47,546 nucleotides of DNA from Candidatus Bathyarchaeota archaeon (lineage in GTDB: Archaea > Thermoproteota > Bathyarchaeia > 40CM-2-53-6). Where the stretch lies: positions 1 through 47,546 of the forward strand of contig VBBQ01000029.1 of NCBI GenBank assembly GCA_005888755.1. The letters run 5' to 3'. This document shows positions 1 to 4,013 of the stretch, in pieces. The notes beneath the pieces were generated by a model. The model was not told the DNA's origin, did not search any database, and saw nothing but the letters and a program-made list of their open reading frames with translations. The translations under genes were made by a program, and so were the position numbers. Each line of letters opens with the position of its first letter. Positions within the stretch are counted from its first letter, which is position 1.

Positions 1-1
1 A

Positions 2-994
2 TTGTACAAGCTTGCAGTGAGACGTGACCGGGACTTAGAAGACCCATCCTATTTTGAAACGATTCGACAAACAGCACCTCCCATCGCGATCAGCCCGGGA
101 AGCTTGGAGCGTGGGATGGACTTCGAGGGAGAAATTTCGCGGCTGACATTCAAAGATGTCGGGGGCATGGACGACGTCAAGGAACAATTCCGGATCAACA
201 TCATTCTCCCGTTGAAAAACCCCAAGTTGTTCCAAACCTACGGCAAGAGAGTAGGAGGTGGAATCCTACTGTTCGGTCCACCAGGCTGCGGTAAGACGTA
301 CCTCTCGCGCGCTCTAGCGGGAGAATGCAACGCTACCTTCTACGGAGTAGGAATCCATGAAATCCTAGACAAGTTCCTCGGAGAGAGCGAGAAGCACATG
401 CACAATCTCTTCGAAACGGCACGACGCAACGCCCCCGCTGTGATATTTCTTGACGAAATTGACTTGCTTGGGCATAAGCGGACAGACGACAGCTGGGGAA
501 GAGCCCTACGAGGAGCAACGAATGTCTTGCTAAGCGAACTGGACGAAGTTGGTAAGCCTGACAAGCCTATTCTGGTCATCGGAGCAACGAACACGCCATG
601 GAGCGTGGATACCGCACTTAGGCGCCCAGGCAGATTCGACAGGATAATTTTCGTCCCTCCACCTGATCAAACTGCGCGGGAGGAAATTCTGAAACTCCAT
701 TTGCGCGAGAAGCCAATTGAGGACGTAGACTATGCCAAGACTGCGTCCAAGCTCGACCAGTTCTCGGGAGCCGACATTCGAGACCTCGTCGATCGGGCTG
801 TAGAACTCGCTATTCGACGAGCAATGCGTTCGGGCAAAACTGAGCCAGTAACCAACCTCGACTTGTTAAGCATCGCTAAGGAGATGCGTCCGTCAACAAT
901 CGAATGGCTTGCGACCGCAAATGACTATGTCAGGTACAGCAATCAGAGTGGGCTGTACGATCGAGTGAAAGAGTACATCGACAAGAACTCCTAG
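2..994 (+). CDS. AAA+ ATPase (Cdc48/VPS4-like single module), 5'-partial
   Basis: This is an AAA+ ATPase module that would couple ATP hydrolysis to remodelling or unfolding of a protein partner in the cytoplasm. Walker A is GPPGCGKT (about residues 92-99), Walker B is VIFLDEID (147-154), sensor-1 Asn lies in GATNTP (about 197), and the arginine-finger region is RRPGRFDR (207-214). A small alpha-helical lid follows, with the usual GADI motif. The frame is open to the window edge and the first possible start is a TTG at base 2, so the true N-terminus, perhaps a substrate-binding domain, is probably outside. One ATPase domain is visible, unlike the two of Cdc48. The partner cannot be told. It sits left of a tRNA-Leu remnant, so it may be element cargo. 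Confidence 0.85.
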   Translation: MYKLAVRRDRDLEDPSYFETIRQTAPPIAISPGSLERGMDFEGEISRLTFKDVGGMDDVKEQFRINIILPLKNPKLFQTYGKRVGGGILLFGPPGCGKTYLSRALAGECNATFYGVGIHEILDKFLGESEKHMHNLFETARRNAPAVIFLDEIDLLGHKRTDDSWGRALRGATNVLLSELDEVGKPDKPILVIGATNTPWSVDTALRRPGRFDRIIFVPPPDQTAREEILKLHLREKPIEDVDYAKTASKLDQFSGADIRDLVDRAVELAIRRAMRSGKTEPVTNLDLLSIAKEMRPSTIEWLATANDYVRYSNQSGLYDRVKEYIDKNS

Positions 995-1213
995 CGGCGG
1001 TCCACCATCAGGAAGAAATGGGCGATAACGAGACCATTTTTCACAAATGGATGCGAACCAGCTCTGGTTCAACCTCCCCCCAGCACCATTCAAAATTGGT
1101 TATCTGGGCAAGATTCTTGCATTTCGGTAGTTCTAGACCGAAGTCTAAATCTAACCCTGTTTTCAGCTAGGACTTGTCACGTTCTCACCTGTAATATTAG
1201 AAGCTGTAGGTTT

Positions 1214-2395
1214 TTACAAGTCATCGCTGCTCTTCAACCATTCACCGAAGAGATTGTCTGGGAACACGTACGCTCCTCTCCCTCTTCTCACAATGATGCC
1301 CTTGTTCACCAAAAGACTGAGAGAATAGCCCACAGTGTCTTTATCCATGAACTGCTGGGCAGCAATCCCGCTCGGTTTGATATCTGAAGATCGAGCGAGT
1401 GCCCTGAGCACCTTCACCTCAGAAGGCGTCAAATCGTCAACGAATTCCTTGAAAGAAAGCTCGCCTTCCTTTCGAAGCACTCCATCAACTACACCTGACA
1501 ATTTCTCGGAACTCAGATCATTGAGCCCTTGAAGCTGAATCTCACTCCCGAGTAGCTGAAGGTTGTATGGGATGCCACTGCTGATTCTGTAGAGTTGTTC
1601 CCTGACGGCATCCCTTGTGAACTTCAGACCTGGTAAGTAGTGTTGAAGAAACTCTTTGTATTCGGACTCGGAGAATGGCTCGATCTCGCGTAGTAGAAGC
1701 TGTTTGTAGAATGGAGCGCTCTGTTTGGCGACAAGATTTCGCATGGTCTGGCGATATGAGCCAGAAATCACGAGTTTCGTGCGCTTGAACCCCTCGTAGA
1801 GAGTCCGAATGAGCTTGATCATACTATCGCCGATCTTCTGGTTCTTTGCCCCGTACGTTAGATCCACCAGCGAAGGGAACTCGTCGACGATCAGGACTGA
1901 GTTCGTCCTAGTCATCTCTCCTAGATGCTCAATCAACGAAAAGCATCCAGTCAACGCATCGTCAACATCACTTGCTTCCCTTCTCACGTAGGATATTGAA
2001 ACTTCGAGGTCGTCTGTGACCTTTGCTGACAACTTTAGGCTGTTTAGAAATCTCGTTAGGGCAGCTTTGCCCGTGACAAGGAGCTCTTCAAACTTGAACT
2101 TTGCGGGCAATCTGTTTCGGAAAGCGTTAAGGGCTGCACGATTCGCCACCCTGACAAATTCGTCTATCGTGTTCGGCGAGACACGCCATACAGACACATA
2201 AGCTACCGGGACCTTTCTGTTCTCTGTTAGTCTCCGTTCGACTTCTTTTAGGATACTCGTCTTCCCAATCCTTCGAACTCCGGAGAGTGAGTAGCCGATC
2301 TTGTTCCTGGATGAGAGTTGATTAACCAACTCTGAGGTTATTTCTTTTCTTCCTACGAAGTCATCCGCCAGCGCGGGCGTGAGTGTGAAAGCCAA
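1214..2395 (-). CDS. Archaeal P-loop ATPase (PF01637-like) with C-terminal winged helix
   Basis: This 393-residue protein belongs to the archaeal ATPase family of STAND/MNS-type P-loop NTPases. The N-terminus has the typical FVGRKEI entry motif at residues 13-19, Walker A is GVRRIGKTS (39-47) and Walker B is VLIVDEFPSL (167-176). A sensor-like VISGS strand follows. The C-terminal roughly 80 residues read as a winged-helix domain (TPSEVKVLRALA, then a beta wing RRGRGAYVF). Such ATPases are abundant in archaeal genomes and mobile elements and their roles are mostly unknown; DNA binding or defence are possible. It is convergent with the AAA+ gene to its left, with 219 bases between them and nothing recognisable there. 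Confidence 0.85.
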   Translation of the reverse strand: MAFTLTPALADDFVGRKEITSELVNQLSSRNKIGYSLSGVRRIGKTSILKEVERRLTENRKVPVAYVSVWRVSPNTIDEFVRVANRAALNAFRNRLPAKFKFEELLVTGKAALTRFLNSLKLSAKVTDDLEVSISYVRREASDVDDALTGCFSLIEHLGEMTRTNSVLIVDEFPSLVDLTYGAKNQKIGDSMIKLIRTLYEGFKRTKLVISGSYRQTMRNLVAKQSAPFYKQLLLREIEPFSESEYKEFLQHYLPGLKFTRDAVREQLYRISSGIPYNLQLLGSEIQLQGLNDLSSEKLSGVVDGVLRKEGELSFKEFVDDLTPSEVKVLRALARSSDIKPSGIAAQQFMDKDTVGYSLSLLVNKGIIVRRGRGAYVFPDNLFGEWLKSSDDL

Positions 2396-2589
2396 GACAG
2401 ATCGCTATAATTGTAAACATTACACGTTTTAAACTTTAAACGGTTATTGGGCACTGTAAAGTAGTTTGCTCCAGAGAAGCTCCTGTCTGTGCGACGACCG
2501 CTCTTTGGTGAGTTTTCATTCATGTAGACTCAGGCGAACAGGGCGATACGCTCTGTCTGAACGAAATTTGCCTTATATGTACTAGTAAA

Positions 2590-2618
2590 GTGGGGTCCAA
2601 ATCCCACCCCCCGCACCA
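2590..2618 (+). pseudogene. tRNA-Leu 3'-end remnant (T-arm, acceptor 3' strand, CCA); candidate attachment site
   Basis: The stretch reads as the last third of an archaeal tRNA-Leu gene. A 5-bp T-stem (GTGGG/CCCAC) encloses a T-loop of 8 rather than 7 bases, followed by the 7-base acceptor strand CCCCCGC, discriminator A and an encoded CCA. The matching 5' acceptor strand GCGGGGG and the D and anticodon arms are absent from the roughly 190 bases upstream. Archaeal integrases commonly recombine into tRNA 3' ends and leave such a displaced fragment at the far boundary. By that geometry the element would extend left, with the intact tRNA beyond the window. No integrase is visible here. Confidence 0.6.
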
Positions 2619-2661
2619 ACAGGTTGGGTAGCTATTGGAAAAACATCTTTCCAAGTAGAGA

Positions 2662-3528
2662 TTAGGGAGAGCCAGTGAGATGAGTCAAAGTGTTGGAGGC
2701 AGGGCTCGCCTTGACTTCTCTCCAAGTGACGATCATTACCGGAATGATCACACCTATCATGAAGGCTAGAACTATCAGATTCCCAAAATCCAGCGGAATC
2801 GTGTCTTGTATACCAGTTCGGAAGAGTATTCCCGCGACGATGAATATTATCCCGCCGTAAAATAAGCTGCGTGCCCCTGCTCTTGTGCCGAAGAGCTGGA
2901 CTCGTTCTGGACCCCACCTCTTCGCGATTTGGAGGACACCGCCAAACACCGAACCGATTGCAAGCAACACTATCAGCGTGCCGAACCCAAATGCGGCCCC
3001 GGGTGCGAATCCAAGATATGCAGCCGGCATCGCTGGAACAGCGACTAGATAGATGAAGGTGGTGAATAGGCCTGTGTCGACGCCGAACCCGGCGATGAAC
3101 CCGTGGATCACGCACCAGTGTGTAGGGACTCGTCTTGAGACTCCTTTCTCGTCATAATGTGTTCCACCACGAGTACGCAGGAATCGGGCCAATGGGTGCC
3201 AAGATGGCAACTTCCCGTGTAGTATCAAGTATCCCGCGATAGTCATGGCGATTCCCACAGCAACGTAGACAAGCGCGTTCAACCCTTCATTGAAGGCGAG
3301 ATAACTAGCGAGGGCAAAGTAGACGAGCTGAGCCATGATCGCGCGCTGAAGCGTAAAAGCTGAGGCGAAGAACACGCCTGAGAGCATTCCCCCTCTCCCC
3401 GTCGCTGAGCCCACAGAATAGCTGAAAGTGATAGGCCATGTGTGCTCGTCCGGAATAACTCCGTGGAGTACTCCAAGACCCAGAGAACCCAACAGAAGAA
3501 CGATCCATTCCGGGAGAGGAGGGATCAC
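2662..3528 (-). CDS. Membrane permease, probable nickel/cobalt transporter (NiCoT/NicO-like)
   Basis: This is a 288-residue integral membrane protein with about seven hydrophobic segments. The first segment carries HGVIPDEHTW at residues 22-31, which resembles the HX4D(X)H metal-selectivity motif of NiCoT/NicO nickel-cobalt transporters. A second motif, HGFIAGFGVDTG, lies in a later segment, and there is no long His-rich loop. It is divergent from a NikR-like regulator, with an inverted repeat overlapping its own putative TATA region, which strongly suggests Ni-dependent repression of uptake. Direction (uptake or export) and metal are inferred from context. The ATG start at 3528 lies close behind the AT-rich promoter. 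Confidence 0.65.
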   Translation of the reverse strand: MIPPLPEWIVLLLGSLGLGVLHGVIPDEHTWPITFSYSVGSATGRGGMLSGVFFASAFTLQRAIMAQLVYFALASYLAFNEGLNALVYVAVGIAMTIAGYLILHGKLPSWHPLARFLRTRGGTHYDEKGVSRRVPTHWCVIHGFIAGFGVDTGLFTTFIYLVAVPAMPAAYLGFAPGAAFGFGTLIVLLAIGSVFGGVLQIAKRWGPERVQLFGTRAGARSLFYGGIIFIVAGILFRTGIQDTIPLDFGNLIVLAFMIGVIIPVMIVTWREVKASPASNTLTHLTGSP

Positions 3529-3629: not shown

Positions 3630-4013
3630 ATGCCGATCGTTAGCGTCTCCTTACCGAGTGAACTCATCGATTCAATGGCCGTGATTCAGGAATCGCAAGG
3701 ATACGCAGGAAGGTCCGACGTAGTCAGAGCTGCGATACGCCTCCTGCTATCCGACACTAGGGAGAAAGGGTCGTTTGCTGGGCGGGTCACAGCAATTCTT
3801 GTGGTTACACATGACGAATCCAATGAAGAACCGATCACTCGGCTAAAGCACACCTACGACGACATCGTTCGAACACACATTCACAATAAGTTGGGCCAAA
3901 ACAATTGCTTCGAGCTCTTTTTGCTAGAGGGAGAGGGGAAGAAGATCGCCTCAATGACTAGCGCATTCCAGAAGGAGAGAAAGCTGAGAAGCGTTAAGCT
4001 TCTCGTAATATAG
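3630..4013 (+). CDS. nikR: NikR-like nickel-responsive transcriptional regulator
   Basis: This 127-residue protein has an N-terminal ribbon-helix-helix DNA-binding domain (IVSVSLPSELID, then GRSDVVRAAIRLLL, residues 3-40) and a C-terminal ACT-like regulatory domain starting with GRVTAILVV at 51. Candidate Ni ligands are His74, His83, His85 and Cys93. They match the order of the E. coli NikR ligands (His76, His87, His89, Cys95), although the Cys is two residues further from the His pair. NikR tetramers repress Ni-uptake genes when nickel is bound, and the divergent permease is the obvious target. A TATA-like GATATAAG lies at about 3583-3590. A Co- or Zn-responsive role is possible. Confidence 0.8.
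   Translation: MPIVSVSLPSELIDSMAVIQESQGYAGRSDVVRAAIRLLLSDTREKGSFAGRVTAILVVTHDESNEEPITRLKHTYDDIVRTHIHNKLGQNNCFELFLLEGEGKKIASMTSAFQKERKLRSVKLLVI

Follow-up and report, generated by a model that had tools for sequence, protein, structure and literature searches.

The 29 bases at positions 2590-2618 of the window, a 47,546-nt stretch of DNA that is the whole of contig C23 of a soil Bathyarchaeia genome, are by sequence comparison the far end of a small mobile cassette. The cassette belongs to a family that is class-wide (Bathyarchaeia), mostly integrase-free and anchored at tRNA genes, and by analogy this family resembles a tRNA-anchored counterpart of bacterial integron cassettes. We consider it likely that the fragment is the attR of a gene cassette whose insertion point was a tRNA-Leu 3' end, and that such integrase-free cassettes are moved in trans by XerA-like integrases. 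Bathyarchaeia rank with the most abundant of the uncultured archaea and, to our knowledge, little is known about how they acquire accessory and defence genes. If our model holds, mobile cassettes and the sites where they insert can be located in fragmented MAGs by a precise sequence tag. The model would also define recombination sites that are open to test and describe cassette-array behaviour without an integron. The arrays could also be behind part of the breaks that assemblies of these genomes show close to tRNA-Leu genes.

The right boundary and the intact tRNA-Leu

The fragment reads GTGGGGTCCAAATCCCACCCCCCGCACCA. A sequence-only reading of the window had taken all 29 bases for the 3' end of an archaeal tRNA-Leu, with T-arm, acceptor 3' strand and encoded CCA, and had proposed that they mark the right boundary of an integrated element. 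A degenerate pattern of tRNA-Leu T-arm, acceptor and CCA had a single match in the window, at 2590-2618, and none in 100 shuffles, while ARAGORN and Rfam, run on the window, reported no tRNA or other RNA family at the fragment. The sequence, the acceptor 3' strand and the CCA were as described, but the T-arm is not intact. The GTGGG/CCCAC pairing encloses 8 nt (GTCCAAAT), and a proper T-arm is thus missing from the first half of the stretch. A comparison that took in 98 other right ends assigned only 2600-2618 to the tRNA (19 nt, AATCCCACCCCCCGCACCA: T-stem 3' strand, acceptor 3' strand, discriminator A and CCA) and 2590-2598 (GTGGGGTCC) to the element's own end. In the same comparison the purine at 2599, T-loop position 57, was often unlike the tRNA at the same locus, and is therefore element-derived. 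The bases before the tRNA part are CTTATA-TGTACTAGTAAA-GTGGGGTCC. The features of the window that matter here are as follows.

1..2599, + strand: distal part of the inserted cassette; the proximal end is on contig C4 of the same genome, positions 1-211, and empty sites are in genomes G005, G006 and G014
2..994, + strand: AAA+ ATPase, CDC48/IetA-like, 5' end truncated by the contig edge (Pfam AAA 1.2e-37, AAA_lid_3)
1214..2395, - strand: archaeal ATPase_2 (STAND-like P-loop) protein, 393 aa, with a C-terminal MarR-like winged helix (Pfam ATPase_2 5.2e-9, MarR_2 3.8e-6)
2572..2589, + strand: element right-end signature CTTATA-TGTACTAGTAAA; 2578-2589 is the near-palindrome TNTACYRGTAAA; conserved in 99 distinct right ends
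2590..2599, + strand: element-derived half site GTGGGGTCCA; consensus nTGGKGYNN, then R; partly complementary to the tRNA terminus CACCA
2600..2618, + strand: displaced tRNA-Leu 3' end, the right direct repeat; same 3' core on C4, C13, C27 and C35
2619..4013, no strand: chromosomal right flank, which neighbours the same tRNA-Leu in relatives
2662-3528, - strand: membrane-protein gene in the right flank, conserved beside the same tRNA-Leu in relatives
3630-4013, + strand: NikR-like gene in the right flank (NCBIfam, score below cut-off)

The 16-base core CCCACCCCCCGCACCA has five copies in the window's own genome: the window site and one each on C4, C13, C27 and C35. Those on C13 and C27 are intact tRNA-Leu genes. 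The sequence-only reading had suggested looking for an intact tRNA-Leu with the same 3' sequence, and C4 carries one. It is an intron-containing gene that passed the acceptor-stem check, and its 3' CCA is at C4:212, pointing off the contig end. ARAGORN misnames or misses the intron-containing tRNA-Leu genes at C35:8785-8947 and from C4:212; it called the C35 gene a tRNA-His with an 85-nt intron.

At three loci in sister genomes (G005:C11, G006:C83 and G014:C24), the homologue of the C4 tRNA region, about 79-82% identical, runs directly into the homologue of the window from 2619 onward. The right flank has 76-84% nucleotide identity with these three loci; over G005, G006, G013 and G014 together the range is 76-86%, and the similarity starts at or near the junction. 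From these alignments we take the three loci to be empty sites for the window's insert. Since the C4 tRNA is joined straight to the sequence from 2619 onward in relatives, an insert at that tRNA-Leu has its distal part in the window, from 1 to about 2599.

With an intact tRNA on C4 and empty sites in three sister genomes, the proposal of a right boundary of a tRNA-Leu-integrated element was borne out. Synteny conserved across the site in relatives, which had been named as an observation that would speak against it, is indeed present, but it is what an empty site looks like. The two ATPase genes had been placed inside an element extending past the window, and both lie within 1 to about 2599, with the tRNA-proximal end on C4:1-211; the element is divided between C4 and C23. 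The integrase expected with it is another matter, as there is none in the visible part of the window's element and the single PF00589 match in the genome is unlinked. The GC comparison that had been suggested put the element only slightly below the flank (0.495 vs 0.521).

In the window's own genome, the 3' end of the C4 tRNA is followed by TTTTACTTCTGCC and then by about 200 bp that match the start of an insert on G007:C132. This insert is 4.4 kb long, its left end is 98% identical to C4:1-198, and it ends in the same right-end signature as the window. We looked for the missing middle of the window's element, and the TPR gene of the G007 cassette had no match in the window's genome. Other genomes have other inserts at the same tRNA-Leu locus. 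G010 has a different insert of 2.9 kb with its own right end. The insert in G013 (G013:C91:6424-9470, L225) is 3 kb long. It opens, directly behind the tRNA, with a 193-aa ORF that is an integrase-like, N-terminal remnant, and its far end is a longer repeat, an about 44-nt copy of the tRNA 3' half. Judging by this repeat, we take the G013 insert to represent another integration system at this tRNA, one that has longer repeats. Because the inserts in the window's genome, G010 and G013 are different, this tRNA-Leu is an insertion hot spot.

End signatures, arrays and recent movement

The search for further copies started from 84 bases around the fragment and covered 61 genomes. The copies that we found match the sequence before the fragment too, beyond the tRNA part. 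The window's genome has a second right end, C27:8714-8789, with an intact tRNA-Leu about 0.8 kb before it. Within the genus the right-end consensus is TTATATGTACYRGTAAA-nTGGKGYNN-RAATCCCACCCCCCGCACCA, and across the class it is TTTACYRGTAAA-TTGGTGCTG-(A)AATCCC...CCA. The right-end pattern matches 77 of 251 Bathyarchaeia genomes and the reversed control matches 2 of 251. We collected 99 distinct right ends, which are conserved from 6 bases before the palindrome to the CCA (-6..+40). The half site has G at two conserved positions in 87% and 97% of the right ends, and these positions were not fixed by the search pattern. The part that lies 3' of AATCCC agrees with whichever tRNA is the target at that locus, among them tRNAs that end in CCCCGGCGCCA or CCGGAGCACCA.

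Scanning GTDB contigs for the right end returned mostly Bathyarchaeota, Crenarchaeota and 'archaeon' metagenome records, plus one 'bacterium' and one 'Asgard'. On the Asgard-labelled contig (JAHPYV010000118.1, 'Asgard group archaeon LC30'; L114, 423-7517) there are a tRNA, a left-end-like motif and two right ends over ABC-transporter genes. This contig is either misbinned or a cross-phylum case. A viral origin was rejected, as no IMG/VR contig had the right-end or left-end pattern (exact patterns only) or a relative of the integrase described below.

Beside intact tRNAs we found a left end, nTTTACYRGTAnn, which is the reverse complement of the right-end motif. Allowing at most 2 mismatches, it is present at 11 of the 24 tRNAs that have a right end within 12 kb. 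It is also present at 7 of 40 tRNAs without a right end; six of these are integrase loci and the seventh is the C27 element of the window's genome. Several left ends are degenerate. The full anatomy is an intact tRNA ending in ...CCCCGCACCA, followed by nTTTACYRGTAnn, one or few cargo genes, TNTACYRGTAAA-nTGGKGYNN-R and finally AATCCC...CCA. In G035 both ends are fused with zero cargo: CACCA-TTTTACTGGTAAA-TTGGTGCTG-AAATCCC.

There are two minor observations on the ends. In some families (left ends L299, L305, L319 and L320), the 100 bp that directly follow the tRNA are conserved between cassettes whose cargo differs, and a second copy of TTTACYRGTAAA lies about 85 bp inside; this inner copy is possibly an arm-type binding site. 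Degenerate right ends of the form ATGTAGCGGTAAR-CTGGTGCGC-GAATCCCACCTCACGRACTATCC occur at C13:88048-88076 of the window's genome (L143), at G015:C3:60-88 (L115) and at G008:C160:10403-10431 (L120). Their upstream sequence is common to the three genomes, and they are probably one old relic that was vertically inherited.

Units were delimited from a tRNA, or from the preceding right end, up to the next right end, which gave 44 elements. Their median length is 1.65 kb with a range of 16 bp to 7.6 kb, and the largest may take in chromosomal genes. An associated integrase is absent from 43 of the 44, and in the single carrier (G024) it is decayed. Four consecutive units, with four right ends, stand behind one tRNA-Leu on G017:C38, and this array ends at the same gene that follows the C27 unit in the window's genome. 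There are further tandem arrays in G004, G019, G030, G151, G155, G156, G165 and G227. The order of cassettes is not fixed: behind the cassette with a 197-aa gene comes a PIN-domain cassette on G151:C41 but a 159-aa cassette on G151:C55, and the 159-aa cassette is by itself at a tRNA in G135, which is of another family than G151.

Some cassette ends are far more similar between genomes than the genomes themselves. Window positions 2278-2619 are 96.5% identical to the end of G014:C68, which is a different locus, whereas the identity with G014 is 78% at the flank of the window itself and about 69-71% in the neighbourhood of C68. Likewise, G007 is 70-82% identical along the window's flank compared with 98% at C4:1-198. 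Near-identical cassette ends in diverged hosts are, on these identities, a sign of recent movement.

Integrases, a proposed mechanism and its alternatives

Some PF00589 loci within the taxonomic order share the left end of the cassettes. On G036:C134 and G024:C11 the arrangement is tRNA-Leu, then TTTTACYGGTAAA, a small unassigned gene and a tyrosine integrase, which is 325 aa long in G036 and broken in G024. The genes between the integrase and the right end in G024 look chromosomal, so a complete integrase-bearing element is not delimited with certainty. At nine loci an integrase lies by a tRNA with the palindrome immediately after the tRNA, in some with one or two mismatches, and these left-end-linked integrases adjoin tRNA-Leu and other tRNAs. 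The G036 integrase (P0001) combines a SAM-like domain at its N terminus with a catalytic domain and is XerD/XerA-like. It scored 156.5 bits against the XerA equivalog NF040815, for which the cut-off is 220, and by that score it is a relative of XerA and not a member. Relatives of P0001 are present in 13 of 251 genomes. Right ends occur in 8 of these 13 compared with 69 of the 238 genomes without the integrase (one-sided Fisher p = 0.018, phylogeny uncorrected), so integrase and cassette presence across genomes are weakly associated.

No P0001-family member was found in the window's own family, f1, and some 98%-complete genomes that bear right ends (G021 and G026) have zero PF00589 matches. The enzyme that moved the window's cassette is therefore probably not resident in its genome. 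That genome is 95% complete, and its sole PF00589 match is a 202-aa, catalytic-domain-only tyrosine recombinase (P0002) at C37:56984-57589 (L165:1144-1752). It is 85-97% identical over most of the genus, and several relatives have it a few kb from a tRNA-Gly; it could be the Xer-type enzyme of this genus. We rejected it as a general mobiliser because it is confined to the genus (12 of 251 genomes) whereas the signature is class-wide.

When the left and right ends are joined they give a predicted attP, in which inverted arms ATGTACCRGTAAAnTGGTGCG ... CGCACCAnTTTACYGGTACAT lie around a tRNA-identical block. In our model, a XerA-like tyrosine integrase would recombine cassette circles with the tRNA 3' end. 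Its gene would lie in other elements that have this left end and sit at these tRNAs. Each integration would restore the tRNA. Each insertion would also add a tRNA 3' fragment beside the signature, so that more cassettes can join and tandem arrays open to reshuffling would build up. We infer that cassettes excise and that the integrase-free ones are served in trans. Recombination is predicted to depend on AATCCCAC and to be lost if TTTACYRGTAAA or TGGTG is mutated. The DNA fold is strong in a G017-like attP (z = -6.2) and weak in the window's own (-0.8); some copies may therefore recombine at a folded hairpin, but such a site is not general. A broader version of the model, which we put forward tentatively, is that tRNA-Leu/Ser 3' ends act as attI and that in every cassette the part of attC is played by a tRNA-derived sequence with a palindromic arm. 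The result would be a class-wide analogue of the integron, anchored at tRNAs, whose integrase-free cassettes pass between genomes and rely on XerA-like integrases that come in as visitors.

Parts of this are familiar. Tycheposons of marine bacteria are cargo blocks put into tRNA genes by tyrosine recombinases; as generally described, they share with our cassettes the placing of cargo at tRNA genes and differ in being larger and bacterial. A later use of tycheposons is PMC10872708. Among archaea, tyrosine integrases commonly target tRNA 3' ends (PMC8371274). Like the pNOB8-, SNJ2- and pT26-2-type elements (PMC8371274), the cassettes target a tRNA 3' end, restore the tRNA, leave a displaced 3' fragment at the distal end and have a XerA-like tyrosine recombinase at some left ends. 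Unlike those elements, they are mostly 0.5-4 kb, integrase-free and tandem-capable, with a palindromic end signature over several tRNA species. The cryptic integrated elements of Thaumarchaeota are multigene, with a median of 17 kb and, by our reading of the paper, the integrase as the most conserved protein (PMC6563490). Our cassettes also have no viral or plasmid signature genes and are often at tRNA genes, but they have a median of 1.65 kb and are integrase-free. We found no description of this cassette family in the open-licence literature.

The main rival to movement in trans is that the cassettes are relics. They would then be deletion remnants of a larger integrase-encoding virus, plasmid or island at tRNA-Leu that lost its integrase later, and would not be mobile themselves. 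We think this unlikely, although it deserves to be taken seriously: an integrase-type remnant is present at the very same locus in G013 (193-aa ORF, 3 kb, longer repeat), many ends are degenerate, and several genomes have no recombinase. However, the same short integrase-free cassettes are found complete from end to end in different genomes and array orders, and their ends are 96-98% identical between species where the flanks have diverged. The right ends are intact and uniform, and the integrase is absent from 43 of 44 delimited elements. Complete recurrence in new contexts speaks against relics as the sole explanation.

Casposons insert differently. A Cas1-family casposase inserts elements with terminal inverted repeats at tRNA 3' ends and makes a 14-15 bp target duplication. 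The casposons of Methanosarcina mazei (PMC6977970) are like our cassettes in having inverted ends, a short direct repeat, a tRNA-Leu 3' target and tandem insertions, so the inverted terminal motif and short repeat seen here could have come from such a system. We judge this very improbable. Cas1 (PF01867) is in 0 of 21 genomes of family f1, with control genomes positive, and the left ends adjoin tyrosine integrase genes. The repeat is also placed differently: here it is wholly within the tRNA (AATCCC...CCA), whereas in M. mazei the duplicated stretch consists of the final 4 bp of the tRNA and 10 bp outside (PMC6977970).

Slighter still is the chance that these are true integron cassettes or CALINs, that is, attC-bearing cassettes served by an integron integrase. 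The layout is similar, with arrays of small cassettes, one or two accessory genes per unit, recombined orders and an integrase that is often absent, and CALINs are known from archaeal MAGs (PMC9668308). But paired RYYYAAC/GTTRRRY (R''/R') boxes are in 0 of 99 right ends, a tRNA 3' end forms the repeat, and the units are anchored at an intact tRNA gene. There is no IntI either; P0001 scores 46.9 bits against an integron integrase cut-off of 265, and the window's genome has only P0002. We give least credence of all to a fragment that is not mobile, whether it is a tRNA gene in decay or a tRNA-like gene from which a small RNA is transcribed. The TATA-like stretch TTTGCCTTATAT upstream does resemble an archaeal promoter but the empty sites refute this as the sole explanation, the flanks vary from copy to copy, and conservation ends at the element and tRNA boundaries.

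Cargo of the cassettes

By profile matches only, the cassettes carry ATPase_2, AAA, TPR, NERD, PIN, AbiEi/AbiEii-like, Mads-like and metabolic or transport genes. Under the trans-mobilised cassette model we infer that this cargo is accessory, and the window's share of it would be the IetA/CDC48-like AAA ATPase and the ATPase_2 protein. The ATPase at 2..994 matches PADLOC IetA at 1.3e-31; its IetA match stays at 100 bits, below the NCBIfam cut-off of 510, and against NCBIfam CDC48 it reaches 4e-64, also under that model's cut-off. An Iet anti-phage system pairs IetA with the protease IetS; the visible part of the window's element showed no protease. The protein at 1214..2395 has a weak match to the PADLOC candidate PDC-S27, and ATPase_2 relatives of its gene are present in the cassettes of the G017 array.

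The G007 cassette encodes a TPR-AAA relative of the ATPase at 2..994. Within its 4.4 kb (L206, G007:C132, 150-4266) there are two TPR proteins, a NERD-domain protein and the TPR-AAA (IetA-like) ATPase, and from this gene content it is a candidate defence island related to the window's cassette.
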